DNA of 64,000 nucleotides, taken from contig NZ_LMCM01000007.1 of assembly GCF_001426245.1 (NCBI RefSeq), positions 372,001 through 436,000 on the forward strand, written 5' to 3'. Both the position numbers and the translations under genes were made by a program. Each line of letters begins with the position of its first letter. The first letter of the stretch is position 1. Shown here piece after piece: positions 496 to 14,018 of the stretch. The notes beneath the pieces were generated by a model. It saw only the letters and a program-made list of their open reading frames with translations. It did not search any database and was not told the DNA's origin. Source of the DNA: Phycicoccus sp. Root101. Its GTDB lineage: Bacteria > Actinomycetota > Actinomycetes > Actinomycetales > Dermatophilaceae.

Positions 496-531
496 CCCCG
501 CGAGCCCCGGGGCGTCTGAGGGATCCGACGG

Positions 532-1038
532 TCAGGGGGCCAGCAGGGCCAAGGGGACGCGGCAGTTGACGCCGACGTCGTTGAGGCGGGCGACGAGCGG
601 GCGCCCGTCGACGACGGGGAGGACCAACGGCTTCGGCTTGCCCGCCGCCAGCGACCGCGCGTACGCGTCGCGGGCAGTGACCAGCTGCTCCCAGTCGTCG
701 ATCCACTGGGCGGTCGGCTGGTCGGCGTCGACCACGCCCGGACCGAGGGAGCGCAGCGTGGTCAGCATCTCGACCACGGCGTCGTTCTGCGCGTTGATGG
801 CGCCGAGCCGCTGGTTGCGTGGTGCGGACGTGGGCACCGCCGCCGCCGACACCGAGTCACGCATCGTCGCGCACGCCACGCCGACGGTCCGGGTGATCGC
901 CGAGTTCTCGATGACCGCAGGGTTGTCGGTGTTGGCGAACGCCCAGAGCTTCACCAGGGCCACGGCGACGACGACCCCAGCGACCACCACGGAGACCCGA
1001 GCCGCCCAGACCCGCCAGCGCTCGGCGCGATCCGCCAC
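532..1038 (-). CDS. Hypothetical protein with N-terminal membrane anchor
   Basis: 168 residues. One hydrophobic segment at about residues 12-32 follows a basic N-terminus (RAERWRVWAARV), so the protein is likely anchored with the remainder outside the membrane. The exported part contains two cysteines (VACATM and VNCRV) that could form a disulfide. No family is recognised. It converges with the SGNH hydrolase gene and lies just downstream of the YegP-like gene on the same strand. Function unknown. Confidence 0.7.
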   Translation of the reverse strand: MADRAERWRVWAARVSVVVAGVVVAVALVKLWAFANTDNPAVIENSAITRTVGVACATMRDSVSAAAVPTSAPRNQRLGAINAQNDAVVEMLTTLRSLGPGVVDADQPTAQWIDDWEQLVTARDAYARSLAAGKPKPLVLPVVDGRPLVARLNDVGVNCRVPLALLAP

Positions 1039-1044
1039 GGAGAC

Positions 1045-1227
1045 CTAGCCGTCCACCTCGACGGTCGGGGCTCCTGCCGCACTGGTCTGCACCGAGGCGA
1101 TGCCGTTCTGGGCAGCGGACTTGCTCTCGTACGCCTCACCGACGGCGACGACCTGGCCGTTGCCGGCCTTGAGACGGAACCGCCACTTGCCGGCCTTGTC
1201 CTGGTAGAGCTCGAACTTCCCCGCCAT
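1045..1227 (-). CDS. YegP/DUF1508 family small protein
   Basis: 60 residues starting MAGKFELYQD, with the pattern KFELYxDKAGKWRFRLKAxNG and a later GEAYxSKSAAxNGI. This is the DUF1508 (YegP) domain, usually found as one or two copies in small proteins of unknown function. The ATG at 1227 is preceded by GGAGGTGCGCC, a good ribosome binding site, so the longer open frame running upstream to 1887 is not used. Single-domain version. Function not established; links to stress or DNA damage are only suggested for the family. Confidence 0.85.
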   Translation of the reverse strand: MAGKFELYQDKAGKWRFRLKAGNGQVVAVGEAYESKSAAQNGIASVQTSAAGAPTVEVDG

Positions 1228-1361
1228 GGCGCACCTCCGTCGAGTGGACAACCGAAACGCTTGGCAGCCTAGGACCGCCGGGTGCGCCCGTACAGGTCCA
1301 CGAGGTGCGGACTCAGGCAGCGTCGACCGACATCGAGCGCACCCCTCGACCGGCCGGCTCC

Positions 1362-1805
1362 TCAGTGGGTCGCGCGGGCCTCGGCCATCGACTTGAGCTT
1401 CGTCATGGCGTCCATCGTCTGCTTCGGCAGGTCGCGACGGATGAGCGGGGTGAAGAGCTTGCCGAACCCCCGGGTGCCGATGTCGATCGAGTGCGTCAGG
1501 GTCGTGCCCACCCCGTCCGAGGCGGCGACGAAGTCCACCGTGACGTCCATCGTCTTGTCGGTGAACTTCATCGCGAAGTGGCGGTCGGGTTCGCGCGCGA
1601 TGACCTCGCCGTCCATCGAACCCGTGCGCCGGCCGTCGTCGTAGTGGTACTTCAGCTTGGTGCCGACGTCGTTGGCCCCGGCGTCGAGCTTGTCGATCCC
1701 GGTGCACCGCGACAGCCACTGCGGTGTCTGGCTGAAGTCGTCGACGATCGCGAAGACCACGGACGGTGGGGCGCTGACGGACAGCGTGTGTGCGAAGCGG
1801 GGCAT
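1362..1805 (-). CDS. SRPBCC (START/Bet v1-fold) family protein
   Basis: 147 residues, typical polyketide-cyclase/SRPBCC length. It opens with MPRFAHTLSVSAPPSVVFAI and has the usual 'pxxxVFxxVxD' opening, central beta strands (GTKLKYHYDD, GTTLTHSIDI) and a C-terminal helix ending in LKSMAEA. The fold binds hydrophobic ligands, but nothing here identifies one. It stands alone, divergent from nothing obvious, between small genes. Role unknown. Confidence 0.85.
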   Translation of the reverse strand: MPRFAHTLSVSAPPSVVFAIVDDFSQTPQWLSRCTGIDKLDAGANDVGTKLKYHYDDGRRTGSMDGEVIAREPDRHFAMKFTDKTMDVTVDFVAASDGVGTTLTHSIDIGTRGFGKLFTPLIRRDLPKQTMDAMTKLKSMAEARATH

Positions 1806-1907
1806 GACAGGTCTCCGGACACGTCGAGGGGTCGTGCAGGGGTGCGGACACCGTACTGCTCCGTGCCACCCTCCGGGTCCGTCGCACGGACGAGTTCGCG
1901 CCGGCAG

Positions 1908-2204
1908 CTAGGGGGTGGGAGGTATGGCGTGCACCTCAAGGCCGGGCGGGGCCGGCCGGGGGCGACGGGGCTCCCGCACCCCTGCCGGTCCACCGTCGGC
2001 GCCGGGTCCGGCGAAGAGGCCGACCAGGCGGCGGCCACGGACCCGGCGCTGCCGGTACACGGCATACGCGGTGACGTCCGTGGCGTCGGTGGGAGCGAGG
2101 GAACGCACCAGGGCGACCGCCTCCCCGGCGTTGTCCGCGGGGACGTTGCACGTGCTCAGCCCGCCGCGACGCGAGCGCGCGGTGACGTCGAAGGTCCTCA
2201 TCAC
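1908..2204 (-). CDS. Small hypothetical protein downstream of selD
   Basis: 98 residues from GTG at 2204, or 97 from the following ATG at 2201 (MRTFDVTARSRRGG). The N-terminal half looks like an ordinary alpha/beta protein, while the C-terminal third is Pro/Arg/Gly rich and may be poorly folded. It sits 36 bases after the selD stop on the same strand, so it may be transcribed with selD. No family recognised. The moderate confidence reflects the chance that this is a non-coding high-GC frame. Confidence 0.4.
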   Translation of the reverse strand: MMRTFDVTARSRRGGLSTCNVPADNAGEAVALVRSLAPTDATDVTAYAVYRQRRVRGRRLVGLFAGPGADGGPAGVREPRRPRPAPPGLEVHAIPPTP

Positions 2205-2240
2205 CCCAGCGTGCGCTCCCGAGCCCCCGACGACAAGACC

Positions 2241-3257
2241 TCAGGTGATGCGCAGGCGAGGGGGGCCGGCGACCGTGTGACCGACGACCGGGGCACCGGG
2301 CACCTCACCGACCACGAGCAGGCCACCGCTGGTCTGGGCGTCGGCGAGCATGAGCAGCACCTCCTCGGAGACCTCGGCGTCCAGGTGGGGGCGCACCCAG
2401 TCGAGGTTGCGTCGCGTTCCGCCGCTGACGTACCCCTCCCGCAGCGACTCCCGGGCCCCGTCGAGCACCGGCACCGCCGTCGAGTCGAGCACGGCCCCCA
2501 CCCCGGACGCGCGCAGCAGCTTCCACAGGTGCCCGAGCAGCCCGAACCCGGTCACGTCGGTCGCCGCCCGCGCCCCGCCCGCGACGGCAGCGGCGGAGGC
2601 GACGTCGTTGAGCGCGACCATCGAGGCCACCGCATGGGGGAAGACCTCACCGGTCGACTTGTGGCGGTTGTTCAGGACCCCCACCCCGATCGGCTTGGTC
2701 AGGCTGATGGGCAGCCCGGCCACGGCGGCGTCGTTGCGCAGCAACAGGTTCGGGTCGGCCAGGCCGGTCACGGCCATCCCGTACTTCGGCTCGGGGTCGT
2801 CGATGCTGTGCCCGCCAGCGACCGCACAGCCGGCGGACCGGGCGACGTCCAGGCCCCCGCGGAGCACCTCGCGCAACAGCTCCAACGGCAGGACCGCCCG
2901 TGGCCAGCCCACGAGGTTGACCGCCAGGACGGGACGCCCGCCCATCGCGTAGACGTCGGAGAGGGCGTTCGCCGCGACGATGCGCCCGAAGTCGTAGGCG
3001 TCGTCCACGACCGGGGTGAAGAAGTCGGCGGTGCTGATCACCGCGGTGCCGCCGTCGATGCGCAGCACGGCCGCGTCGTCGCCGTCGTCGAGCCCGACCA
3101 GGAGGTCGCCGTCACCGGCTCCGACCGGTGCGCCGCCGACGAGACCGCGGACGACCTCCTCGAGCTCCCCGGGCGGGATCTTGCAGGCGCACCCCCCACC
3201 GGAGGCGTACTGCGTCAGCCGGACAGGCGTCCCGGTGGTCGCGTCGAGGGTGCTCAC
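2241..3257 (-). CDS. selD: Selenide, water dikinase
   Basis: 338 residues. SelD makes selenophosphate, the selenium donor for Sec-tRNA, from selenide and ATP. The N-terminal segment TQYASGGGCACKIPP contains the conserved active-site Cys and Lys (Cys rather than Sec at the catalytic position). An AIR-synthase-like ATP-binding fold follows, with conserved DDAAVLRIDGG, TADFFTPVVDD, ANALSDVYAMGG and GGHSIDDPEPKYGMAVTG. The GTG start at 3257 is chosen because the conserved region begins 10-15 residues later. A TANNNT-type -10 lies 7 bases upstream, as expected for a leaderless mRNA. It diverges from tRNA-Sec/selA/selB. Confidence 0.96.
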   Translation of the reverse strand: MSTLDATTGTPVRLTQYASGGGCACKIPPGELEEVVRGLVGGAPVGAGDGDLLVGLDDGDDAAVLRIDGGTAVISTADFFTPVVDDAYDFGRIVAANALSDVYAMGGRPVLAVNLVGWPRAVLPLELLREVLRGGLDVARSAGCAVAGGHSIDDPEPKYGMAVTGLADPNLLLRNDAAVAGLPISLTKPIGVGVLNNRHKSTGEVFPHAVASMVALNDVASAAAVAGGARAATDVTGFGLLGHLWKLLRASGVGAVLDSTAVPVLDGARESLREGYVSGGTRRNLDWVRPHLDAEVSEEVLLMLADAQTSGGLLVVGEVPGAPVVGHTVAGPPRLRIT

Positions 3258-3263
3258 CGTGCC

Positions 3264-3270
3264 TACGCTA
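3264..3270. promoter_or_regulatory. Overlapping divergent -10 elements between selD and tRNA-Sec
   Basis: Only 24 bases separate the selD start codon from the first base of tRNA-Sec. They hold TACGCTA, which reads as a TANNNT -10 hexamer on both strands: TACGCT at 3264-3269 for the tRNA/selAB direction and TAGCGT at 3270-3265 for selD. The selD copy is 7 bases before the GTG, matching leaderless actinobacterial transcripts. Promoter function is inferred from position and sequence only. Confidence 0.5.
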
Positions 3271-3281
3271 GCCTCGCCAGC

Positions 3282-3377
3282 GGAGGCGTACAGGTGCCTG
3301 GTGGCCCTCCCGGTCTTCAAAACCGGTGAAGCCGAGCAGCTCGGCTTGGCGGGTTCGATTCCCGTCCGCCTCCGCCA
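3282..3377 (+). tRNA. selC: tRNA-Sec (anticodon TCA)
   Basis: 96 bases including an encoded CCA. The acceptor stem GGAGGCG (3282-3288) pairs with CGCCTCC (3367-3373), with discriminator G and CCA at 3375-3377. The anticodon loop CTTCAAA has TCA at 3317-3319 on a CCGGT/ACCGG stem. A long variable arm (AAGCCGAG/CTCGGCTT) and T-loop GGTTCGATTCC are present. These features, the UGA-reading anticodon and flanking selD/selA identify it as tRNA-Sec. It is on the selA strand, ending 14 bases before the selA ATG, so it probably heads the selA-selB transcript and is cut out by processing. Confidence 0.97.
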
Positions 3378-3391
3378 CGACAGGAGGACGT

Positions 3392-4723
3392 ATGCCGCAG
3401 CCGCAACCGGGCGACGTGCGTCGCCTCGTGCCACGTACCGACACCGTCCTTGCGGAAACCGCTGTGGCAGAGGCGATCTCGCGCCTGGGTCGAGACACGG
3501 TCCGGACCGCCGTGGTGGCCGCGCAGGAGCAGGTGCGTCGCGGCGGCATACGTCCGGACGAGCTGGTGTCAGCGACGTTGGCAGCGCTGCCCACCCGGGC
3601 GACCACGCTCACGCCGGTGCTCAACGCGACCGGGGTCGTGATCCACACCAACCTCGGACGGGCACCGCTGTCGGCTGCCGCGGTCGAGGCCGTCGTCGCC
3701 GCGTCAGGCACCGTGGACGTCGAGCTCGACCTCGCCACCGGCAACCGGTCGACGCGTGGTCGGGGCACGCTCGCCGCCCTCCTCGGCGCGGTGCCGTCCG
3801 CCGGTGGGGCCCTCGTCGTCAACAACGGGGCCGCCGCCCTGGTGCTCGCCACGACCGCCCTCGCCGCCGGACGCGAGGTGGTGGTCAGCCGCGGGCAGAT
3901 GGTCGAGATCGGCGACGGGTTCCGCCTGCCCGACCTCATCGAGAGCACCGGCGCCCGGCTGCGGGAGGTCGGCACCACGAACCGCACCACGCTGGCCGAC
4001 TACGAGCGCGCCCTCGGCCCCGAGACCGGCTGCATCCTCGTGGTGCACCCCAGCAACTTCCGCGTCGAGGGGTTCACCGCATCGGTCGGCATCCGCGCGC
4101 TCGCCGGACTCGGTGTGCCGGTGGTCCACGACATCGGCAGCGGCCTGCTGCGTCCACACCCGCTCCTGCCCGACGAACCGGATGCGACGACCTCCCTGCG
4201 CGGCGGGGCCGCGGTCGTGACGTGCAGCGGCGACAAGCTGCTCGGTGGACCACAGGCCGGCCTGGTCCTCGGCACGGCCGACGTCGTCGATCGTCTGCGC
4301 CGCCACCCGCTGGCCCGTGCCCTGCGGGCCGACAAGACCACGCTCGCCGGGCTGGAGGCCACCGTGCGCGGCCCCCGCCCCCCGGTGTGGGAGGCGCTCG
4401 AGGCCGACCCGAGGGCACTGCGGTCCCGCTGTGAACGCCTGGCCGCGGAGGTCACCGGTCCGGTGGCCGCCAGCCACCCCGCGCACGTCGTCGAGGTGGT
4501 GCCCGCCGACGGTGTCGTCGGTGGCGGCGGTGCACCCGGACTCCCCCTGCCGGGGTGGGCAGTCGCCCTCCCCGAGCCGTATGCCGCCGCGCTGAGGGCG
4601 CTCGACCGCCCCGTCCTCGCGCGCCTGGACCACGGCCGTTGCCTGGTCGACCTGCGGTGCGTCCCCGGCGAGCGGGACGCGGACGTCGCGGCGGCCATCC
4701 GGTTGGCCGGGCGCACGACGTAG
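3392..4723 (+). CDS. selA: L-seryl-tRNA(Sec) selenium transferase
   Basis: 443 residues. SelA converts Ser-tRNA-Sec to Sec-tRNA-Sec with selenophosphate, as a PLP enzyme. The aspartate-aminotransferase fold is seen with NATGVVIHTNLGRAPLS early, VVHDIGSGLL before the cofactor site and the PLP lysine in CSGDKLLGGPQAG near residue 280. The ATG at 3392 is chosen because AGGAGG at 3382-3387 precedes it; an in-frame extension would run back into the tRNA. The stop codon is directly followed by the selB ATG. Length is close to the usual 450-465. Confidence 0.97.
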   Translation: MPQPQPGDVRRLVPRTDTVLAETAVAEAISRLGRDTVRTAVVAAQEQVRRGGIRPDELVSATLAALPTRATTLTPVLNATGVVIHTNLGRAPLSAAAVEAVVAASGTVDVELDLATGNRSTRGRGTLAALLGAVPSAGGALVVNNGAAALVLATTALAAGREVVVSRGQMVEIGDGFRLPDLIESTGARLREVGTTNRTTLADYERALGPETGCILVVHPSNFRVEGFTASVGIRALAGLGVPVVHDIGSGLLRPHPLLPDEPDATTSLRGGAAVVTCSGDKLLGGPQAGLVLGTADVVDRLRRHPLARALRADKTTLAGLEATVRGPRPPVWEALEADPRALRSRCERLAAEVTGPVAASHPAHVVEVVPADGVVGGGGAPGLPLPGWAVALPEPYAAALRALDRPVLARLDHGRCLVDLRCVPGERDADVAAAIRLAGRTT

Positions 4724-6172
4724 ATGGCGGTCGTCGCCACCGCCGGCCACGTGGACCACGGCAAGTCCACCCTGGTCCGCCTGCTCACCGGCACCGAGCC
4801 GGACCGGTGGGCCGAGGAACGCGACCGTGGACTGACGATCGACCTCGGCTACGCCTGGACCGACCTCGACGGGGTGCACCTGTCCCTGGTCGACGTGCCC
4901 GGCCACGAGCGGTTCGCCGCCAACATGCTGGCCGGACTGGGGGCCGTCGCCGGGGTGATGTTCGTCGTGGCGGCCGACGAGGGCTGGGCCCGACAGTCGG
5001 AGGAGCATGCCCGAGCTGTCGCGGCACTCGGCCTGCGCGAGGTGCTGCTCGTCGTCACCCGGTGCGACCTCGTCGACGAGTCGAGGGCGCTCCGTTCGGC
5101 GCGAGCCGCGGTCGAGCACCTGGCCGCCCTGGGCCTGGCGGCCCGCGAGTTCGTCCTCGTCTCGGGTCGCACCGGCGCCGGGTTGCCCGGGTTGCGTGAG
5201 GCGCTGCGCCGGCTCGCTGTCGCCGTGGGGGACGCGGACCCGGAGGCACCGGTACGGCTGTGGCTGGACCGCGCGTTCACCGTGCGTGGCGTGGGTACCG
5301 TCGTCACCGGCACCCTGACCGCGGGCACGGTGCAGGTCGAGGACGAGCTGCTGCTGCGCGGTGAGGTGGTCCGGGTCCGCGGGGTGCAGACCAGTGACCG
5401 GCCCGTCGACCGGGTGGCGGCGCCAGCGCGGGTGGCGCTCAACCTGCGGGCGGTCCCGCTCGACGGGGTCGCCCGGGGGGACGTGCTGCTCGACCCGCGC
5501 CTGCCCGGCCCGGCAGCGGTCGTGGACGTGACCACCTACGAACCCTGGCCACGCGGCGCCATACCCCGGTCGTGGCCGCGCCAGCTCGTGCTTCACGTGG
5601 GCACGGCCGCAGTGGGCGTGCACGTCCACGCGATGGCCGACGGGCGGCTCCGGCTGCGACCCGCCACCGCCCTGCCGCTGGCGCTCGGCGACCGCGGGGT
5701 GCTGAGGGATCCGGGGCTGCACGAGGTGCGCGCCGGTGTCGAGGTGGTGGCGCTCGACCCGCCGCGGCGACGTCAGCGACCGACGGTTACTCGTCAGGGT
5801 GCTGCCGACGAACCCGGCACGGCCCCCACCAACGGCGACGACGGACCCCTGGCGACGCTGGGGTCGTGGTTGGCGGTCCACCCCCTCGACCCGCCCACCC
5901 GGGAGCAGCTCGGGAGCTGGGGAGTGACCGCCCACGTGCTCGCGGGAGCAGAACGAGCCGGACAGGTGACCCGCCTCTGCGGACTGGTGCTGGCCGGCGA
6001 CGCGGTGGCTCGCGCCACGGACGCCATCCAGGGGCTGGCCGAGCCGTTCCGCCCCGGTGACGCAGCCGCCGCGCTGCAAACCTCGCGCCGGGTGGTCATC
6101 GCCCTGCTCGAACGGCTCGACAGCCTCATGGTGACGCGCCGGCTCCCCGACGGGACGCGGGTGGTGCGGTAG
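4724..6172 (+). CDS. selB: Selenocysteine-specific elongation factor
   Basis: 482 residues. SelB is the GTPase that delivers Sec-tRNA-Sec to UGA codons marked by a SECIS hairpin. G motifs are clear: GHVDHGKS at residues 8-15, DVPGHE near 57 and TRCD near 111 (a variant of NKxD). Domain II/III beta barrels follow, then a C-terminal winged-helix part ending near DGTRVVR. Full-length bacterial SelB is usually about 590-640 residues with four winged helices, so this one has a shortened C-terminal mRNA-binding part. The start ATG abuts the selA stop (TAGATG). Confidence 0.95.
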   Translation: MAVVATAGHVDHGKSTLVRLLTGTEPDRWAEERDRGLTIDLGYAWTDLDGVHLSLVDVPGHERFAANMLAGLGAVAGVMFVVAADEGWARQSEEHARAVAALGLREVLLVVTRCDLVDESRALRSARAAVEHLAALGLAAREFVLVSGRTGAGLPGLREALRRLAVAVGDADPEAPVRLWLDRAFTVRGVGTVVTGTLTAGTVQVEDELLLRGEVVRVRGVQTSDRPVDRVAAPARVALNLRAVPLDGVARGDVLLDPRLPGPAAVVDVTTYEPWPRGAIPRSWPRQLVLHVGTAAVGVHVHAMADGRLRLRPATALPLALGDRGVLRDPGLHEVRAGVEVVALDPPRRRQRPTVTRQGAADEPGTAPTNGDDGPLATLGSWLAVHPLDPPTREQLGSWGVTAHVLAGAERAGQVTRLCGLVLAGDAVARATDAIQGLAEPFRPGDAAAALQTSRRVVIALLERLDSLMVTRRLPDGTRVVR

Positions 6173-6178
6173 CCGACG

Positions 6179-7747
6179 TCAGGGAGCGACGGTGATGGTG
6201 CCGCCCTCGAAGGTGCAGGTCATGGTGCCGTCGGCGAGGCGCCGGGTGTCCGTGAGGGGATAGCCGTAGGGGCCGGTCGCCCCGCCCTGCGCCTTCCACT
6301 CCGCCCGGACCGAGCCGAGCACCCGTCGGCCGGGCCCGGTGCCGAGCGCCCAGACGTCGCCGCCCTGGAAGCTCTGGTAGACCCCTCGCGCTGCCGTCCC
6401 CTGCGCCCCGGTGGGGAAGTGCAGCCAGCCCTGGTCGCGCCCACCGGCGACCCACGCCGTGTGGATGACACCGCTGATCGCCTGGGTGGTCGTCGAGGCC
6501 GAGTCGATGATGCAGCCCTTCTGGAAGCGCTGGACCCATGCGCCGTTGCCGAGGTCCTCCTTCGGCGCGACCGGGTAGCCCAGCCGCCCGGTCTCCCGGC
6601 CCTCGCGCTTCCAGACGTCCCACCGGACGCTCCACACGGACTGGATGGTCGTCGAGGCCGAGTCGACGACGCAGCCGGACTGGAACTCCTGCCGCCAGCC
6701 TCCGTCGACCATGCCGGAGTACCGGTTGCTGATCGGGTACCCGAGCCGTCCGGACTCGCGCCCCTCGCTCACCCAGAGGGTGTACGCGTCGGCGTAGACG
6801 ACCTTCGGCGCGGTGCTCGGCGAGTCGGCGATCGCGCCGCGCTCGAAGAGCTGGACCCAGCCGCCCTGCGCCCGCCCCGTCATCCAGTCGCTGGCGGGGT
6901 AGCCCAGCAGACCCTTGACCCCGTCGACCTGGGTCCACACGGTCTTCACGACGTTGGGCACCGCGCGGGTACCCGTCCTGGAGTTCGTGTGGATCGAGCC
7001 ACCCTGGTAGTCGACCCGGGTGCCGCGGTTGTCGCCGTTGTCCTTGATCGGCCCGAGGGACGACTTGAGGAACGACCCCTGGGCGCCCATGTCGCGGTAC
7101 TTCTTCTCGATGACGCCCCAGCGTGGGAGCAGGGGTGAGCTGTGCTCGTTGGTGCGGTTGTCCTGCAGCGAGGTCGTCGTGCAGGCGTCCCACTTGTAGG
7201 GGGCGACACAGCTGACGACCCGGCAGTGCACGCCTCCGCTGCACTTCACCTGGGTGTTGCACTGGCCGTACCGGAAGGCGTTGCAGCAGACGCGGCGCTG
7301 GTCGCACGTGGCGCTCGAACCGGTGCCGCAGGAACAGCTCCAGCACTTGCTGTCGCAGATGCCGTCGGTGCAGCCGGTCGAGCACTTGGAGCAGGAGGCG
7401 TTGCAGTCGACGATGTACCGGTAGCCGCCACCGCACCACGAGGAGTCGGCGGCCTTCCACCACCCGGCCGCGAAGCTGCCGGGCGGACAGGTGTTGGCGC
7501 CCTTGTTGACCGTCGCGCAGAACACCGTCCAGCCGCTGCTGGCGGTGTTGCCGGGGCCGCAGATCGTCGCGTACGCCGGCTGGGGCCGCAGGACGTAGTC
7601 CTTCGGTCGCGTCGCGAGGGCCGAGCCGGCCACCGCCGCACCGACGAACACGTCGCGGCGGGACACCGGGCGCATCCGCCGCGTCAGCGAGGTGACGAAC
7701 CCGGCGATGCCGCCCGGGCCGGCGTTGAGGTCGTCGAGGGCGCTCAC
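6179..7747 (-). CDS. Tat-exported Cys-rich protein resembling methylamine dehydrogenase light chain, fused to LGFP repeats
   Basis: 522 residues from GTG at 7747, preceded by GGAGG. SRRDVFVG (Arg30-Arg31) plus a hydrophobic stretch is a twin-arginine signal. Residues 63-189 contain 20 cysteines, a CPPG motif (87-90), tryptophans at 96, 97, 104 and 136, and a spacing that resembles the beta subunit of methylamine dehydrogenase (MauA), whose tryptophan tryptophylquinone is made from two Trp and whose disulfides need MauD/MauE. Residues about 220-515 hold five LGFP-type repeats (LLGYP, RLGYP, RLGYP, WLHFP, PYGYP), usually cell-wall-associated. Its start overlaps the preceding stop by 4 bases. 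The MauA link is a pattern-level inference, supported by MauD/MauE-like neighbours. Confidence 0.72.
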   Translation of the reverse strand: MSALDDLNAGPGGIAGFVTSLTRRMRPVSRRDVFVGAAVAGSALATRPKDYVLRPQPAYATICGPGNTASSGWTVFCATVNKGANTCPPGSFAAGWWKAADSSWCGGGYRYIVDCNASCSKCSTGCTDGICDSKCWSCSCGTGSSATCDQRRVCCNAFRYGQCNTQVKCSGGVHCRVVSCVAPYKWDACTTTSLQDNRTNEHSSPLLPRWGVIEKKYRDMGAQGSFLKSSLGPIKDNGDNRGTRVDYQGGSIHTNSRTGTRAVPNVVKTVWTQVDGVKGLLGYPASDWMTGRAQGGWVQLFERGAIADSPSTAPKVVYADAYTLWVSEGRESGRLGYPISNRYSGMVDGGWRQEFQSGCVVDSASTTIQSVWSVRWDVWKREGRETGRLGYPVAPKEDLGNGAWVQRFQKGCIIDSASTTTQAISGVIHTAWVAGGRDQGWLHFPTGAQGTAARGVYQSFQGGDVWALGTGPGRRVLGSVRAEWKAQGGATGPYGYPLTDTRRLADGTMTCTFEGGTITVAP

Positions 7748-8250
7748 GGGTGTCCTCCCTGTCGGGCCAGGGTGGCCCGGTCGGTGATGCTCAACGAGTT
7801 GACGAGGGCGACCGCCCGGGGCACCGAACCCATCCGTCGGGCGTGGCTGCCGAGCACGGTGAACAGGCAGAACGCCCGACCACCCGAGCTGAAGAAGTGC
7901 TGGGACGCGCTCAGCCCCGGCAGCGGGCGCTGCAACCGGTTCGGGCCGAACTGCGACGGGGCCAGGCGGGGCAGCCCCTGCTTCTCGAACAGGCCCTGGT
8001 CGGCGACCTCGGTGCCGTAGTCGACGAGGGCGACGAAGATGTCGTCCGGGCCGAGGAGGTCGACCACCCCGGTCCCGAAGTCCCCGCGTGCCGTCGGCAT
8101 CGGTCTGGTGCAGGCGTGCAGGACCGGGCGGGTCACGTCCTCGGCAGCTCCCCGGGCGGTGGGGCCCAGGTCGGTGGCACCGGGACGCCGTGAGACGGCG
8201 ACGTGCCACCCCCGAGGTGCCTGAGCGGCGAGTCCGTATGCGTCTGCCAT
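7744..8250 (-). CDS. Conserved-looking hypothetical protein in the MauA-like operon
   Basis: 168 residues, soluble and without a signal peptide or membrane segment. Two cysteines (LHACTRP, AFCLFT). It contains a central segment VVDLLGPDDIFVALVDYGTEVADQGLF and the phrase SSGGRAFCLFTVLGSHARR. No known family recognised. Translation is coupled at both ends: its ATG is 3 bases after the membrane protein stop and its stop overlaps the GTG of the exported Cys-rich protein. Such coupling suggests a specific, probably cytoplasmic, partner or maturation role. That role is inference. Confidence 0.75.
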   Translation of the reverse strand: MADAYGLAAQAPRGWHVAVSRRPGATDLGPTARGAAEDVTRPVLHACTRPMPTARGDFGTGVVDLLGPDDIFVALVDYGTEVADQGLFEKQGLPRLAPSQFGPNRLQRPLPGLSASQHFFSSGGRAFCLFTVLGSHARRMGSVPRAVALVNSLSITDRATLARQGGHP

Positions 8251-8253
8251 GGT

Positions 8254-8853
8254 TCAGCTCCCAACTGCGGCGACCAGCAGTGCGGCGGCCGCTCCTCCCA
8301 GCGCCACCCTAGCGATGATTCGTGCCGGTTTGGCCCAACGCTCCACCCGGGTGAACACGGCGTGCAGCGCGGCCCGGTCGGTGACCCGGCCCATGAGCAG
8401 CGACGGGAGGGCGCGGACCACGCCGAACACCGCCCCGATGGCCAGCCCGGCACCGAGCTGCCCGGAGAGGCCGGCGAGCAGCACCACGCCATACGTCGTC
8501 GCACTCGTGATGATCGTGACGAGGCCGAACCCGAGCTGCACCCCGAACCCCAGTCCCATCACCCAGCCGCGGTACTCGTCGAGCCAGTCGACGTCGACCT
8601 GGCGGCGCCACGAAGGCACCATCCGGTTGCCCGGCGCCGAGTCGAAGCCCAGGCCGACGAGCAGCAGCAGGGCCACGACACCGAGGGCCCAGGGCGAGGC
8701 GCGCACGTCCTCGGGCACGGCGGAGCCGAGCAGGGCGGCGAGGGCACCGAGCCCGAGACCGCCGACCAACGACCCGACGAGGTATGCCGCGGTGGTCAGC
8801 CACCAGCGGGAGTTCCTGGCCCGCTCACCGAGCGGGCTGATGCTCGAGAGCAT
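8254..8853 (-). CDS. Polytopic membrane protein in the MauA-like operon
   Basis: 199 residues with about five hydrophobic segments (roughly 20-45, 57-75, 97-120, 122-150 and 178-197). It has no cysteine, so it is not a CcdA/DsbD-type thiol carrier although it sits beside MauD/MauE-like genes. The loop between the second and third segments is charged (PSWRRQVDVDWLDEYRG). The ATG at 8853 follows GAGGTGAG, which overlaps the stop of the upstream mini-gene. No family recognised; a permease or assembly-scaffold role is possible but unproven. Confidence 0.75.
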   Translation of the reverse strand: MLSSISPLGERARNSRWWLTTAAYLVGSLVGGLGLGALAALLGSAVPEDVRASPWALGVVALLLLVGLGFDSAPGNRMVPSWRRQVDVDWLDEYRGWVMGLGFGVQLGFGLVTIITSATTYGVVLLAGLSGQLGAGLAIGAVFGVVRALPSLLMGRVTDRAALHAVFTRVERWAKPARIIARVALGGAAAALLVAAVGS

Positions 8854-8862
8854 CGACTCACC

Positions 8863-8943
8863 TCAAGGGGACCACGTGGCGCGCACGGCGGCGACCGCCG
8901 CCATGGGCAGGCCCAGGGCGAGGGCCAGGACGGTGACGGACAC
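8863..8943 (-). CDS. 26-residue hydrophobic mini-protein
   Basis: A GTG at 8943 opens a 26-codon frame (begins MSVTVLALALGLPMAAV, ends ATWSP) that fills the gap between the MauD-like stop (8947) and the next ATG (8853) almost exactly. The peptide is one hydrophobic helix with a basic end, as in small membrane subunits or assembly peptides. Spacing is 3 bases upstream, and its TGA lies inside the ribosome-binding region of the next gene, suggesting translational coupling. It could also be only a coupling leader. Confidence 0.5.
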   Translation of the reverse strand: MSVTVLALALGLPMAAVAAVRATWSP

Positions 8944-8946
8944 GGG

Positions 8947-9873
8947 TCAGTGCTCGCGCCGGCCGGGCACTGCGTGCTCGTGGGCGTCGTCGTGGTCGTG
9001 CCCGTGGTGGTCGTGACCCTCGTGGTCGTGCCCGCTGTGGTCGTGGTCGTGCTGGTGGTCGTGCCCGTCATGGTCGTCCGGGCCTTCGGGGTCAGGCGAC
9101 TCGTACAGGCTGGGGTGACCCGGCGCGATCCCTGCCGCGAGCAGCTCACCGTCCATGCGGGGGAGGTTGTCGCGCTCGCCGCGGCCGAGGTCGTCACCCA
9201 CGAGCGCTCCGGGGCCGCTGCGGCCGGCCGCGGCACGGGCCTCCTCGCTGTCGGACACCCCCTGGGCCATCAGGTCGCGGACCTGCGGCCACGTGGTCGC
9301 CGAGCCCTCGCCGGTGACCTGGCCCCCCTCGACGTAGACGAAGTAGGGCGAGCCGGGGATGTCGTAGTCGAGCCAGGCGGCGGAGGACTGGATCACGGGC
9401 ACATCGCCGGCGAGCGACCGGAGGCTCGGGACCGACTCCTCCTCGGGGCCCTTGGCGACGACTCGAAGGGCACCGTCGCCGGGCACGTCGACACCGCGCT
9501 GGAACTCCTCCCAGAACGTCTGGCAGACGCTGCAGCCGCTGGTGAGGAAGGCGAGCAGGGTCCGCTGGCCGGGGGCCGTCACGACGACCTCGGATGCGGC
9601 GCGCTCGAGGTCGGTGCCGACGATGTCGTGCGCCTTCGTCGAGTCGTGCCGGGTGGCCGGGATGACCCCGGTCTCCAGCTCGACCGGCACGGGACCGGGC
9701 TTGCCGCCCGTGGTCGCGGTGGTCACCCCCGTGCCGGCGTCCTTCTCGAGCTCGAGGCCTGCCCCGAGCTCGTGGAGGGCCTTGAGGATGAGCGCGTGGC
9801 TGCGCAGCAGGCCGAGCACGAGGACGCCGAGCAGGACGACGGCGACCCCCTCGGCGATGACGACGGCAAGCAT
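8947..9873 (-). CDS. MauD/TlpA-like membrane-anchored thioredoxin-fold protein with His-rich tail
   Basis: 308 residues. An N-terminal membrane helix (about 2-23) anchors a thioredoxin-like domain with a CSVC redox motif (Cys114, Cys117) in the context LLAFLTSGCSVCQTFW, as in MauD and related disulfide-handling proteins. From about residue 266 the C-terminus is a tail of alternating His and Asp/Gly with 16 histidines, likely metal-binding. MauD helps form the disulfides of the MADH light chain; here the likely client is the 20-Cys exported protein of the same operon. It is 3 bases downstream of the MauE-like gene. Confidence 0.8.
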   Translation of the reverse strand: MLAVVIAEGVAVVLLGVLVLGLLRSHALILKALHELGAGLELEKDAGTGVTTATTGGKPGPVPVELETGVIPATRHDSTKAHDIVGTDLERAASEVVVTAPGQRTLLAFLTSGCSVCQTFWEEFQRGVDVPGDGALRVVAKGPEEESVPSLRSLAGDVPVIQSSAAWLDYDIPGSPYFVYVEGGQVTGEGSATTWPQVRDLMAQGVSDSEEARAAAGRSGPGALVGDDLGRGERDNLPRMDGELLAAGIAPGHPSLYESPDPEGPDDHDGHDHQHDHDHSGHDHEGHDHHGHDHDDAHEHAVPGRREH

Positions 9874-9876
9874 GGG

Positions 9877-10446
9877 TCAGCCCTTCGTGCGGGTCGGGTT
9901 GGCGCTGCGGACGGCGGTGGCGGTGGTGGTGGGGAGGACGGCCATGACCATCCAGGCGAGGCCGGCGATGACGACGGCGAGGGCGACGGTGGTCACGATG
10001 GACGCACCGGCCGGCGCGTTCGCAGCTGCTCCGGACCACACGGCGGACGGCGGGTCCGCGGCGAGCGCGACGGCGACCAGCGCGGCAGCAGCCGTGAGGA
10101 CGAGGTGGGTCCGGGTCGCGGGGGTGTCGGGCTTGCCGAAGCACCCGCACGACCCGAGGACCCCGCCGCGCGTCAGGACGCGCCCCACGAACAGGGTGAA
10201 GACGAGGTAGGCCGCGGCCACCAGGGCCGCGCTCGCGCGGCCCGGGGCCACGACGGCCCAGACGCCGACGACGACCTCGCCCACGGCGAAGAGCCGGACC
10301 AGTGCCGCGCCGGGGCCCGGTGGGACGACGAATCCGGCGGAGCGCAGGGCGCGCACCAGGGGCAACGGGTCGATGACCTTGGGCACACCGGCCACGACGA
10401 GCAGCCCCGCCACGGCGAGGAACGGTCCCGCGAGTGCGTCCCACAT
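9877..10446 (-). CDS. MauE/DoxX-like redox-associated membrane protein
   Basis: 189 residues from ATG at 10446 (MWDALAGPFL). About five membrane helices and the signature SCGCFG (Cys100, Cys102) of MauE-type proteins, which work with MauD in disulfide formation of the methylamine dehydrogenase light chain. First gene of the six-gene minus-strand operon, separated from the next by 3 bases. The longer frame to 10608 is rejected because its extra N-terminus is Pro/Arg-rich and reads through a hairpin terminator. Role in this cluster is inferred from family and context. Confidence 0.8.
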   Translation of the reverse strand: MWDALAGPFLAVAGLLVVAGVPKVIDPLPLVRALRSAGFVVPPGPGAALVRLFAVGEVVVGVWAVVAPGRASAALVAAAYLVFTLFVGRVLTRGGVLGSCGCFGKPDTPATRTHLVLTAAAALVAVALAADPPSAVWSGAAANAPAGASIVTTVALAVVIAGLAWMVMAVLPTTTATAVRSANPTRTKG

Positions 10447-10574
10447 GGCGTCCACGCTACCCGCCGGGTGCGACGACCCGGCGGTCGCGACAGGCGGGAG
10501 TCGTCGTGGAGGTGGGCTGGGAGCGGCAGGGGGCCGGTGTGGGGCGGCAGGGCGGCATACCGGGACAAACACCG

Positions 10575-10612
10575 CGGGGTGCCGCTCCGTCGGTCGACGG
10601 TGCGGCACCCCG
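10575..10612 (-). terminator. Two-tier hairpin terminator
   Basis: An 11-bp perfect stem (10575-10585 with 10602-10612, core GGGGTGCCGC/GCGGCACCCC) encloses a second 5-bp stem (CCGTC/GACGG) with a GGTC loop. It lies 35 bases after the stop of the LEA-like gene and before the MauE-like gene, so it should separate the two minus-strand units. There is no T tract. Confidence 0.7.
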
Positions 10613-10647
10613 GAGGTGCGCCCTGCGCTGAGGGCGGTGGAGCTGGG

Positions 10648-11481
10648 TCAGTCGACCTTGTCCTTGGTCTCGTCGGCCTTGTCGGCGACGGCCTCGGCGG
10701 CGTCCTTGGTCGCGTCCGCGGCAGAACCTGCAGCGTGCTTGCCCGTGGAGGTCACCTTGTCCTTGGCGTCGGACGCAGCACCGGCGGCCTTGTCCTTGGC
10801 CTCGGTCGCCTTGTCCTTGACGGTGTCGGCTGCTGCTCCGGCCTTCTCCTTGGCGGCGTCGGCCAGGTTCGAGACCTTCTCCGAGGTGGAGGCGCGGCCG
10901 CTGGTCGGCGCGGTGTACGGGTCGTCGAGGGGGGTGGCCCACGGGTCCTCGCGCGGCGCGGACTTGCGGAACACGGCGAACGCGGCACCGGCAGCGGCGA
11001 GGACGCCGAGGAAGATCAGCACCTTGCCCTTGCGACCGCTGCGCTTGGCGACGGCGTCGCCCTTGAGGACGTGGAACGCCCCGCTGGAACGGTCGGCCGT
11101 CTCGCCGGCCACGTCCGTGGCGGTGCTCTTGGCGGCAGCGGAGGCTGCGGCCACGGCCGCGATGGCCTCGGCGACCTTCGGCAGCAGGCTGTCGACGATG
11201 GTGTCGCGGGCGGTGTCGACCTTGGGCGCGAGGCCCTCGACAGCACCCTGCAGCTTCGGGGCGGCGACCTCGATGCCGTGGTCGACGTGGGGCTTGGCCC
11301 AGTCGCGGGCAGCCTCGACGTGGGGCTTGCCCCAGTCCTTGGCCTGGCCGGCGCGGTCCTTGGCGACCTCTGCGGCCGGGGCCACACGGTCCTTGAGGGT
11401 CGATGCGTAGTCCGCCGCGGTGTGGGCCGTCGAGCTCACAGCGTCGGCGGCCTGCTCGGTCTTGCTCTTGGTGCGGAACAC
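10648..11481 (-). CDS. LEA/apolipoprotein-like Ala/Lys/Asp-repeat protein with one membrane helix
   Basis: 277 residues, GTG start preceded by AGGGAGG. The N-terminal half has amphipathic segments (AAEVAKDRAGQAKDWGKPHV; a related PHV/WAKPHV unit follows), then a hydrophobic helix KVLIFLGVLAAAGAAFAVF near 177-195. The last 80 residues repeat KDKA/AADT/DAKDK units like LEA or apolipoprotein helices. Similar proteins (DUF5324-like) are, as I recall, found near the origin in actinomycetes. It diverges from the cyclophilin gene. Function unknown; a stress or membrane-associated role is a guess. Confidence 0.75.
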   Translation of the reverse strand: MFRTKSKTEQAADAVSSTAHTAADYASTLKDRVAPAAEVAKDRAGQAKDWGKPHVEAARDWAKPHVDHGIEVAAPKLQGAVEGLAPKVDTARDTIVDSLLPKVAEAIAAVAAASAAAKSTATDVAGETADRSSGAFHVLKGDAVAKRSGRKGKVLIFLGVLAAAGAAFAVFRKSAPREDPWATPLDDPYTAPTSGRASTSEKVSNLADAAKEKAGAAADTVKDKATEAKDKAAGAASDAKDKVTSTGKHAAGSAADATKDAAEAVADKADETKDKVD

Positions 11482-11626
11482 CTGTGCCTCCCTGGTGGTG
11501 CGGACATGTCTGGCTTCCCCGAGGGGATGTCACTCCTGCCCCATCCTGCCTTGTTTCGGCTGGTGGGCAACCCAGCGGGGCTCCCGCGGACGACGCCCGG
11601 ACGGCCTCCGTGGAAGGATGAGCAGC

Positions 11627-12145
11627 ATGGACGTCACCCTCAAGACCAACCACGGCGACATCAATGTCACCCTCTTCCCCGACCACGCTCCCAAGACGGT
11701 CGCGAACTTCGTCGGCCTCGCCAAGGGCGAGCAGGAGTACCGCGACGACGCGGGCCGCACGAACCCCACGCCGTTCTACGACGGCCTGGTGTTCCACCGC
11801 ATCATCCCCGGCTTCATGATCCAGGGCGGGTGCCCCGTCGGCCAGGGCTTCGGTGGCCCCGGCTACACCTTCGACGACGAGATCAGCCCGGACAAGAACT
11901 TCAACCAGCCCTACATGCTCGCCATGGCGAACGCCGGCAAGCGCATGGGCAAGGGCACCAACGGCTCGCAGTTCTTCATCACCGTGGGTGACACCTCGTG
12001 GCTGCAGGGCAAGCACACCATCTTCGGCGAGGTCGCCGACGGCCCGAGCCGCGAGGTCGTCGACAAGATCGCGAACGTGCGCACCGGTGCGAACGACAAG
12101 CCGGTCGAGGACGTTGTCATCGAGTCGGTCGTCGTCAACGACTGA
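11627..12145 (+). CDS. Cyclophilin-type peptidyl-prolyl cis-trans isomerase
   Basis: 172 residues. Cyclophilins catalyse prolyl isomerisation. The core motifs are present: FHRIIPGFMIQGG (catalytic Arg in FHR), GTNGSQFFIT and HTIFGEV. No signal peptide, so cytosolic. The ATG at 11627 is preferred over the one at 11618 because GGAAGG at 11612-11617 gives a normal 9-base spacing only to the former. In actinomycetes this gene typically sits near the kinase/shape block, followed by a rhomboid gene as here. Confidence 0.95.
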   Translation: MDVTLKTNHGDINVTLFPDHAPKTVANFVGLAKGEQEYRDDAGRTNPTPFYDGLVFHRIIPGFMIQGGCPVGQGFGGPGYTFDDEISPDKNFNQPYMLAMANAGKRMGKGTNGSQFFITVGDTSWLQGKHTIFGEVADGPSREVVDKIANVRTGANDKPVEDVVIESVVVND

Positions 12146-12179
12146 CCTCGACCCGATCCCCCGAAGACAGGACCCGCGC

Positions 12180-13067
12180 ATGAGCGAGCCCACCGCCGGA
12201 GCGCAGCAGCAGACCACACCGGTCTGCCCCCGGCACCCCCAGCGCGTGTCGTACGTGCGGTGCCAGCGCTGTGGCCGGCCGGTGTGCCCGGACTGCCAGC
12301 GGCCCGCGGCCGTCGGTGTCCAGTGCGTCGACTGCGTCCGCGCCCAGGCCAAGACGATGCGCTCGGCCACGACCGTCTTCGGGGGACGGGTCACCGACAC
12401 CCCCGTGGTGTCCTACGCGATCATCGCGCTCTGCGTGCTCGTGTACGTCCTCCAGCTCGCGGTGCCGGGCTTCAGCGACCAGGTGGACTTCAGCCCCTAC
12501 ACGGGTGAGTCCGAGCCCTGGCGGTTCGTCACCTCGGCCTTCGCGCACAGCCCCCAGCAGATCACCCACATCCTGTTCAACATGGCGGCCCTGTGGATGG
12601 TGGGTGCGCAGTACCTCGAGCGCCTGCTCGGTGCCGCCCGGTATGCCGCGGTGTACCTGATCAGCGCGGTGGGCGGCTCGGTCGTCTACCTCCTCATGTC
12701 CACGCCCCCCACCAGCACCCTGGACCGGACCTCGTGGTTCACCCCGATGGTCGGTGCCTCGGGTGCGGTGTTCGGGTTGTTCGGGGCCCTGCTCGTGCTC
12801 AACCGGCACCTGGGCCGTTCCTCCGCGGGGATGTACCTCACCATCGGCATCAACGCCGTGATCGGGTTCGTCCTGCCCAACGTCGCCTGGCAGGCGCACC
12901 TCGGCGGACTGCTGACCGGCGCGGCCCTGGCGGCCGTCATCTCCTGGACCACGCCGCGCGAACGCCGACGCTGGCAGTGGCCCGGCCTTGGGGCCGTGCT
13001 CGCGGTCCTCGTCGTGCTCGCTGTCGTGAAGTACGCGCTCTCCCCCGGGTTCGTCCTCGTCGGCTGA
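12180..13067 (+). CDS. Rhomboid family intramembrane serine protease with N-terminal B-box-like zinc finger
   Basis: 295 residues. The first 55 residues contain paired cysteines and histidine (CPRHP, RCQRCGRPVCPDCQ, QCVDCV), a B-box-like zinc-binding module. About six membrane helices follow. The catalytic dyad is in GASGAVFGL (Ser near 196) and WQAHLGGLL (His near 240). Rhomboids cut membrane proteins within the bilayer; substrates here are unknown. Follows the cyclophilin gene by 34 bases, likely one transcript. Confidence 0.93.
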   Translation: MSEPTAGAQQQTTPVCPRHPQRVSYVRCQRCGRPVCPDCQRPAAVGVQCVDCVRAQAKTMRSATTVFGGRVTDTPVVSYAIIALCVLVYVLQLAVPGFSDQVDFSPYTGESEPWRFVTSAFAHSPQQITHILFNMAALWMVGAQYLERLLGAARYAAVYLISAVGGSVVYLLMSTPPTSTLDRTSWFTPMVGASGAVFGLFGALLVLNRHLGRSSAGMYLTIGINAVIGFVLPNVAWQAHLGGLLTGAALAAVISWTTPRERRRWQWPGLGAVLAVLVVLAVVKYALSPGFVLVG

Positions 13068-13087
13068 CGGGCTCCGGGTTCCCGGCA

Positions 13088-13103
13088 GCGGGTGGGGACC
13101 CGC
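13088..13103 (+). terminator. Short GC hairpin after the rhomboid gene
   Basis: GCGGGT (13088-13093) pairs with ACCCGC (13098-13103) across a GGGG loop, 20 bases past the stop. The stem is only 6 bp and no T tract follows, so this is a weak candidate. Confidence 0.35.
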
Positions 13104-13121
13104 GTATTACACGCCTGTCAT

Positions 13122-13200
13122 TTGTCCCCAGCTGTGGAGAAAGGTGTGGACAACTCCCTGTGGACAACGGTGGGGACGAGCGGCGGACAGATGTGGACAA
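13122..13200 (-). promoter_or_regulatory. Cluster of DnaA-box-like sequences
   Basis: Three exact TGTGGACAA sites (13145-13153, 13159-13167, 13192-13200), i.e. TTGTCCACA on the minus strand, the actinobacterial DnaA box. A near match TGTGGAGAA lies at 13133-13141 and TTGTCCCCA, opposite in orientation, at 13122-13130. All lie in the non-coding gap between the rhomboid and pilin genes. No dnaA or dnaN is in the window, so a regulatory or DnaA-titration role is more likely than an origin. Function is inferred. Confidence 0.6.
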
Positions 13201-13343
13201 AGGTGGGGATGCCCGCTGGTGCCCGAGGATGAGGCGTCTAGTCCTGATGCAGGAGGCTATGGCTGCGTTGTCCGCATGATCACCTTTGCGGTGCGCGCTG
13301 GAAGGCTCTCGGGACTCGACACCGATGTCCACAGAAGGACCAC

Positions 13344-13514
13344 CTGACCACGCTCCAGCAGATGATCCGACGCCGCTCCGCCTCCGAGCGAGGGGCCACA
13401 CCGGTGGAGTTCGGCCTCACCGTCGGTCTCGTCGCGACGTTCCTCGTCGTCGTGGTGGGCCACTTCGGCGAGAGCCTCGCGGGGATCTTCGACGCGGCCA
13501 GCCGGGGTTCCTGA
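13344..13514 (+). CDS. Flp/class IVb pilin-like protein, copy 1 (possible CTG start)
   Basis: From CTG at 13344 this encodes 56 residues; from the internal ATG at 13362, 50. The sequence ERGATPVEFGL is the type IVb prepilin signature (cleavage after Gly, Glu at +5), followed by one hydrophobic helix. The CTG is favoured because GAAGGA (13334-13339) lies just upstream and because the 56-residue product aligns with copy 2 residue for residue. An ATG-start gene with a shorter leader remains possible. No tad assembly genes are in the window. Confidence 0.8.
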   Translation: MTTLQQMIRRRSASERGATPVEFGLTVGLVATFLVVVVGHFGESLAGIFDAASRGS

Positions 13515-13730
13515 GCAGCCGGGACTTCTGAGCAGCCGGGCCCGCGCCCTCCCGGGGTGAGTGGGGGAAGGCGAGTCCGGGGCCGGCAGGCGCCGCCGGT
13601 GGGACCGGGCCGCTCTCGTGCGGATGGTGGAGAACGACGACCCGCACGAGGACGATGTCCGACCGGATCGGCGCTGCCACTCTCTCCGTAGGGCCACACG
13701 CCCATTCCGCCGGCCGCAAGGGAGCCCACG

Positions 13731-13901
13731 ATGACCTTGATCCACAGCAAGATCCAGCAGCACGCCAGCGGCGAGCGCGGCGCCACCGCCGTCGAGTACG
13801 GCCTGATGGTCGGCCTCATCGCCATCGTCATCATCGTCGCGGTCGCGCTCCTGGGCACGAACCTCTCGGACATCTTCAACACGGGTGCCACGACGGTCTG
13901 A
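13731..13901 (+). CDS. Flp/class IVb pilin, copy 2
   Basis: 56 residues beginning MTLIHSKIQQ. GERGATAVEYGLMVGLIA is a textbook Flp prepilin processing site and hydrophobic assembly helix: TadV-type peptidase would cut after Gly, leaving Glu at +5. AAGGGAG precedes the ATG. Flp pilins form thin adhesive or secretion-related pili built by the Tad machinery, which must be encoded elsewhere. A strong terminator follows. The pair with copy 1 looks like a tandem duplication that has diverged. Confidence 0.92.
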   Translation: MTLIHSKIQQHASGERGATAVEYGLMVGLIAIVIIVAVALLGTNLSDIFNTGATTV

Positions 13902-13969
13902 CCCCGCTGGCCCCACCGACCCCTGGCCGCCGGAATCCCCCGCCGGCAGGCCACGGTGTTCGCCACGGC

Positions 13970-14018
13970 GAACGACAGGAGCGCACCTCGGCCGAGCCGG
14001 GGTGCGCTCCTGTCGTTC
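13970..14018. terminator. Strong bidirectional hairpin terminator
   Basis: An 18-bp perfect inverted repeat (13970-13987 with 14001-14018; core GACAGGAGCGCACC) around a 13-base loop that can itself pair. It lies between the converging pilin and crgA genes, so it can stop transcription from both sides. Confidence 0.85.

Follow-up and report, generated by a model that had tools for sequence, protein, structure and literature searches.

The mau cluster of Paracoccus denitrificans encodes MauF, MauE, and MauD, and the biochemical role of MauF is, to our knowledge, unclear. MauE and MauD take part in the maturation of methylamine dehydrogenase (MADH); the passages on this system in PMC7794033, which cite van der Palen 1997, report speculation that MauE forms disulfides of the small subunit and describe the function of MauD as unclear. 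Here we analyze a locus of the actinobacterium Phycicoccus sp. Root101, contained in a stretch of 64,000 nucleotides of contig NZ_LMCM01000007.1 (positions 372,001 to 436,000, hereafter the window), in which homologs of these three proteins are encoded together with a Cys-rich protein and a further protein of 168 amino acids, next to genes for selenocysteine (Sec) insertion. We consider it probable, from homology and gene context, that this operon combines a MauF-MauE-MauD maturation module of selenocysteine type with its own client. A first-pass annotation of the same DNA had described a six-gene operon making a MauA-like, wall-associated redox protein, perhaps with a quinone cofactor; its account of a tightly spaced operon and of the Cys-rich protein held up, its gene count did not, and its interpretation was supported in part.

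The interrupted mauF-like gene and its selenium context

What had been counted as a mini-protein gene and a polytopic protein gene is, on the evidence of the alignments, a single gene, a mauF homolog split at a conserved cysteine position. A 26-amino-acid open reading frame (ORF; 8863-8943) ends in AAVRATWSP-TGA, and a polytopic ORF of 199 amino acids (8254-8853) continues the same frame with GESMLSSISPLGER, such that the stop stands in the context VRATWSP-TGA-GESMLSS. Related loci were fetched with the Cys-rich domain alone (80 of 165 relatives kept, giving 79 loci), and at the corresponding site the 67 readable ones carry TGA (54 loci), TGC (10 loci), or TGT (3 loci) and no other codon, which makes the window the 55th TGA form. 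The frame of the TGC and TGT forms runs uninterrupted (e.g., RSTWSPCGLSMLSTITPLGER), and in an alignment of 38 members that includes both forms, R21, W24, S25, P26, G28, and S30, on either side of the site, do not vary. The remaining 12 loci, in which a regular expression did not read the site, are excluded from the Sec/Cys counts; one of them, L056, has LEGLWSP-TGA-GESML and is uncounted. The operon thus has five genes rather than six, since the two ORFs are one frame split by TGA that is continuous, with cysteine, in relatives. The 26-amino-acid ORF had initially been accepted as a true mini-protein because its R..WSP-stop abuts the polytopic ORF, and it was dropped because the frame of the relatives is continuous.

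A profile of the joined protein aligned with the MauF of Paracoccus denitrificans (one sequence) over 196 columns with an hhalign probability of 98.9 (E value, 1.5e-17), and this MauF has STWSPCG at the position of the TGA; the alignment and the motif together indicate that the polytopic protein is a MauF homolog with TGA at a conserved cysteine. No model in Pfam or NCBIfam recognized MauF, not even the Paracoccus protein itself, and the polytopic protein scored 14.8 bits against PF02683 (CcdA/DsbD), below the cutoff of 27.1 bits. The joined gene is best read, from these comparisons, as encoding a selenocysteine-containing MauF (Sec-MauF).

Genes for Sec insertion adjoin the operon: those for tRNA-Sec, SelA, and SelB lie on the plus strand, directed toward it, and selD lies on the minus strand (Table 1). 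The first-pass annotation had not named these neighbors (2307-6172). A second selD copy is present on contig C3 of the same genome (G000:C3:7350-15236; loci L116, L118, and L119), near a formate dehydrogenase gene with an in-frame TGA (RI-TGA-HSS), which gives the genome a second selenium locus apart from this one.

Directly 3' of the mauF TGA is a stem, GATGCT-n4-AGCATC, which forms six of six pairs in 53 of the 55 TGA genes and in none of the 13 Cys genes. The codon for Ser30 is TCG in all 55 TGA genes (TCG in 6, TCC in 5, and TCA in 2 of the Cys genes), and Ser34 is encoded by AGC in all 55, with serine at that position in 1 of the 13 Cys genes; codon choice is frozen solely in the TGA genes. 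A second hairpin, whose apical loop is of the GGT type, shows covariation, and 90.7% of cells are paired, compared with 36 to 48% when slid. For the whole structure we counted 23 double-change cells, a number that none of 500 shuffles reached. Together the two hairpins after the TGA make up an element that resembles a selenocysteine insertion sequence (SECIS).

Across genomes, the TGA form accompanies selA. Among 50 loci taken for this comparison (all 13 Cys forms and 37 of the 54 TGA forms), selA was found in 35 of the 37 TGA genomes (absent from L052 and L085) versus 1 of the 13 Cys genomes (L072; Fisher P = 9e-9, uncorrected for descent). In the tree the Cys forms are nested within the Sec forms, and two changes of state between Sec and Cys suffice; L072 branches separately from the main Cys clade, and its branch is long and of uncertain support. 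Of 296 genomes sampled evenly across the class, some of them shared with the 79 loci (e.g., G013 is the genome of L055), 92 contained selA and 9 the Cys-rich domain; selA is present in 7 of those 9. A strong match to the MauF profile occurred in ten genomes of this sample, namely these nine and G009. TGA stands at the site in eight of the ten (in G022 on two pieces at contig ends), each of which has selA; the remaining two, G013 and G109, have a Cys-form MauF (TGC at the site in the latter) and are without selA. In a reverse test, the 168-amino-acid protein was present in 17 of 149 genomes of the family, all 17 main loci also encode the Cys-rich domain, and every readable MauF site in them is TGA.

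The operon, its relatives, and the candidate client

The operon runs on the minus strand from 10446 to 6179 and is transcribed in the order MauE homolog, MauD-like protein, split gene (the 26- and 199-amino-acid ORFs), 168-amino-acid protein, and 522-amino-acid Cys-rich protein (Table 1). The tight spacing reported earlier persists once the split gene is joined: adjacent genes are separated by 3 bases in three places and overlap by 4 bases in one. Among the operon proteins, Pfam matches over the cutoff were confined to MauE and LGFP.

TABLE 1 Features of the Sec-insertion genes and the operon in the window
Feature	Position	Strand	Evidence
selD, selenophosphate synthase	2307..3221 (profile-match range)	-	TIGR00476, 375 bits (cutoff 125), G000:C7:374307-375221
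selC, tRNA-Sec, anticodon TCA	3282..3377	+	ARAGORN; Rfam RF01852, 81.6 bits, 3282-3373
selA, L-seryl-tRNA(Sec) selenium transferase	3389..4723	+	TIGR00474, 1.6e-120, over cutoff
selB, selenocysteine-specific elongation factor	4724..6172	+	TIGR00475, 1.2e-75, over cutoff; SelB-wing_3
Candidate client, 522 amino acids: twin-Arg leader, Cys-rich head (20 Cys, WWK, FRYGQC), LGFP repeats	6179..7747	-	
Conserved 168-amino-acid protein, found with the module	7744..8250	-	75 of 79 loci
Sec-MauF, membrane protein of 229 amino acids, predicted Sec at residue 27, GTG start at 8943	8254..8943	-	Read-through, Cys in relatives, MauF homology across the site
In-frame TGA, proposed Sec, WSP-U-G	8863..8865	-	
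SECIS-like element	8819..8854	-	Hairpin GATGCT-n4-AGCATC (8839-8854) and second covarying hairpin, GGT apical loop (8819-8837)
MauD-like thioredoxin-fold protein, CSVC, N-terminal hydrophobic stretch, His/Asp-rich C-terminal tail	8947..9873	-	
MauE homolog, SCGCFG, first operon gene	9877..10446	-	PF07291, 1.4e-13, over cutoff

The genes recur together in other genomes more than chance would explain. Homologs of MauE were identified in 70 of the 79 loci, of MauD in 71, of MauF in 70, and of the 168-amino-acid protein in 75; all five families are present together in 62 loci, in 61 of them on one strand, and the gene set is constant, with an order that differs between loci. Several of the 17 incomplete loci are short or at a contig end. 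One locus (L066:6001-6396) has a lone Cys-rich gene, with the other four families absent from 12 kb, and the same metagenome-assembled genome (YX2bin23) has a full module in L062. Record titles are actinobacterial save those of L057 (Melainabacteria) and L084 (just "bacterium"); the MauF of L057, whose contig is filed under Candidatus Melainabacteria, nests among actinobacterial ones, and that contig may be mis-binned.

The earlier assignment of a MauE-like protein was confirmed by PF07291 (51.7 bits, against a cutoff of 27). That of a MauD-like protein was upheld by the family profile, which matches Paracoccus MauD (hhalign 96.5; E value, 8.3e-10), but not at the level of the TIGR02661 equivalog, whose cutoff was not reached (12.3 versus 188.6 bits); by profile comparison, the protein is a MauD homolog outside this equivalog. 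Its C-terminal His/Asp-rich tail (about 8970-9085, minus strand; HDHDGHDHQHDHDH...) is like His-rich stretches near the same place in L030, L034, and L058 and may bind metal. The 168-amino-acid protein had no match in Pfam or NCBIfam and PDB profile matches only at E values of 1 and 1.5, and its identification as MauJ was rejected for want of kinship. Searches of PDB profiles with the Cys-rich, soluble, and polytopic families (and one single-sequence search) gave nothing convincing. Judged by homology, the MauF, MauE, and MauD homologs form a MauFED-type thiol-redox module.

The 522-amino-acid protein has, as first described, 20 cysteines at residues 63 to 189, a CPPG motif (at 87), and LGFP repeats, in six stretches. 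Its proposed export by the twin-arginine translocation (Tat) pathway agrees with a leader visible by eye (VSRRDVF; an SRR motif and a hydrophobic stretch) but found no backing from Tat models, which stayed below their cutoffs (PF10518, 9.9 of 22.7 bits for the whole protein and 13.6 bits for its first 199 residues; TIGR01409, 13.7 of 16.7 bits). An AlphaFold model of the Cys-rich head (pLDDT, 92; pTM, 0.88) had no match at E ≤ 0.001 in a Foldseek search of the PDB. Kinship of the head to MauA appears weak: in a set of 55 members made up of the window and 54 of the 79 loci, PF02975 (MADH light chain) gave no match at E ≤ 1, the gene itself was not among the two matches of another PF02975 search, and the hhalign score of the head against the MADH light chain was equaled by 4 and 3 of 100 shuffles. 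The adjacent W37 and W38 are invariant in all 55 members, an invariance that, like that of FRYGQC, is partly built in because the scan selected its sequences with two peptide patterns centered on GWWKA and FRYGQC; the next best Trp site is W in 41 of 55. The first-pass annotation had seen no mauB or mauG in the window. PF03150 (MauG) had no match at E ≤ 0.01 in the Phycicoccus genome (control positive in 2 of 14 genomes); PF06433 (MauB) also had no match, in a weak test whose control was positive nowhere.

The C-terminal part of the protein changes between relatives: of ten that were scanned, two have LGFP repeats, one has a ricin-type lectin domain, one has FG-GAP-like repeats, and the other six show no Pfam family over its cutoff. 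A constant head with exchangeable binding domains suggests that the head is displayed at the cell surface, and, from gene order and by analogy with the mau system, the Cys-rich LGFP protein is likely the client of the MauFED module.

The MauF profile search also recovered eight weaker places in seven genomes, all seven with selA. Each of the eight has an in-frame TGA within another motif, SGS[VT]-TGA-[ST]xNS, with a predicted stem after it whose loop is often such as GGTCT or AGGTT. A MauE homolog lies near one of these genes (PF07291 in L125, 57.8 bits) and a MauE-like motif (motif only) near another (L122), and in L123 the gene stands beside that of a Cys-rich protein (L123:3873-5330) with a twin-Arg leader recognized by eye and C-terminal PG_binding_1 domains (3.1e-30). 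Represented by few loci, this second subfamily seems to repeat the arrangement with a different head and a different wall-binding domain. One genome contains two divergent Sec-MauF-like genes about 4.5 kb apart on opposite strands (L122:1267 and L122:5720).

Alternative readings of the stop codon and the head

The TGA could instead be a genuine stop between two genes, with a single-transmembrane mini-protein followed by a translationally coupled polytopic protein that begins at an ATG just after it. Operon genes in the TGA loci mostly end in TGA anyway (234 of 261 stops), so that its identity alone is weak evidence for Sec. An in-frame ATG lies 9 bases on, with GAGG upstream, from which translation might restart after the TGA, and a hairpin at this place might regulate initiation. 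Thirteen of the 67 loci, and L121 as well, nonetheless have an uninterrupted frame with cysteine exactly at the TGA, the flanking residues are invariant on both sides, and MauF homology spans the site; moreover, the methionine in question is ATG in 12 of the 13 Cys forms, where it is no start, and an in-frame ATG shortly past the TGA occurs in only two of the eight places of the second subfamily. We regard two genes as very unlikely. That UGA is read as some other residue, or is a leaky stop, is hardly credible: nothing specific favors it, and against it stand the adjoining Sec machinery, the presence of selA in nearly all tested TGA genomes, the SECIS-like hairpin, and cysteine as the sole alternative residue. 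Besides the common stop and the internal ATG, several other observations weigh against Sec-MauF and its proposed role. The tree contains just two Sec/Cys changes and hence few events, so the link with selA is not independent of descent, and L072 retains selA with a Cys form. In the hairpins, further pair types are no more numerous than in shuffles (87 of 500). The second helix has its outermost pair unpaired in 24 of 54 rows, and the first hairpin barely varies. RNAalifold unaided recovers the first helix and just two pairs from the second region, and Rfam at the gathering threshold found no SECIS in positions 1 to 14000 of the window. The MauF alignment has a single invariant Cys/Sec, so MauF would be no dithiol shuttle by itself, and the client relation and the oxidized state of the cysteines come from gene order and analogy only.

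With regard to the head, the first proposal, a redox protein of MauA type carrying a Trp-derived quinone, seems improbable. A tryptophan tryptophylquinone is disfavored because the adjacent WW alone is invariant and MauG was not found; the 55 members have no invariant second Trp site, and neither PF02975 nor Foldseek gave a significant match. We likewise give little credence to a metal or cluster site, in which the cysteines would be kept reduced and loaded in the cytoplasm, the head exported folded by Tat, and Sec-MauF and MauD would keep it reduced or aid loading. Clustered CxxC motifs and the His-rich tail of the MauD in the window would suit such a site, as would the Tat pathway, which normally carries folded proteins. 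Cysteine number and spacing vary between members, however, and the role speculated for MauE in the passages of PMC7794033 is the formation of disulfides.

Proposed mechanism and comparison with known systems

In the mechanism that we propose for the Sec-containing module, UGA would be read as Sec by SelB with tRNA-Sec, and Sec27 of MauF would exchange with the CxC of MauE and the CxxC of MauD in an electron relay across the membrane. MauD would form or correct disulfides of the head after its export, and the LGFP repeats, or other binding domains in relatives, would hold or present the head at the cell surface. The direction of electron flow is something we infer by analogy, and the 168-amino-acid protein is probably a dedicated chaperone or partner, a guess as to its role. 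A wider proposal would make Sec-MauF the core of a class of selenium-dependent maturation modules in actinobacteria, with at least two subfamilies (WSP-U-G and SGS[VT]-U-[ST]xNS), each with a different exported Cys-rich head and an exchangeable wall- or glycan-binding domain, and with a protein-derived cofactor at the invariant WW beyond disulfides; in this full form it is speculative and unlikely to hold.

If Sec-MauF is real, a membrane oxidoreductase family would be added to the bacterial selenoproteins, and the locus would exemplify an annotation miss in which a gene broken at UGA appears as a very small ORF and a truncated one. MauF would gain a testable active residue, the cysteine of STWSPC; a new use of selenium, in the maturation of exported surface proteins, would be suggested; and the natural Sec/Cys pairs would offer a ready test of the benefit of selenium in thiol chemistry.

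We did not find this selenoprotein family described in the literature. The table of 119 prokaryotic selenoprotein families in PMC13188914 contains neither a MauF family nor a WSPUG motif, and the words methylamine and Mau are absent from the main text of that paper; term searches of the main texts of PMC9312934 and PMC5029168 found neither word. NCBIfam has no model for a MauF selenoprotein, and among the matches listed in our literature search nothing concerned MauF with selenocysteine, which is no proof of novelty because most subscription journals lie outside that search.

CcdA has an SPC-type motif in its first transmembrane segment and a Cys pair. With the CcdA/DsbD family (PF02683), Sec-MauF shares the character of a polytopic membrane protein, such an SPC-type motif, and a weak Pfam score, but it has one invariant Cys/Sec and stays under the cutoff. 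With known prokaryotic selenoproteins (PMC13188914) it shares the replacement of Cys by Sec in a likely oxidoreductase and a SECIS-like hairpin just after the UGA; the nearest by name in that source is TsoB, a family listed as rhodanese/DsbD fusion-like, whose NCBIfam model did not match. The RiPP-like (ribosomally synthesized and posttranslationally modified peptide-like) clusters of Streptomyces found by decRiPPter likewise combine MauE and MauD without MADH in actinobacteria, whereas the passages of PMC7794033 that describe them name no MauF or selenocysteine. The mau cluster of Paracoccus denitrificans (mauF-B-E-D-A) has in common with the operon MauF, MauE, and MauD homologs and, next to them, a small Cys-rich protein that bears a twin-Arg leader, CPPG, and a nearby Trp; from that cluster the operon differs in that MauG was not found and the heavy chain was not detected (in a weak test), and in having TGA, proposed to encode Sec, in MauF, a candidate client fused to LGFP repeats, and an extra gene for the 168-amino-acid protein.

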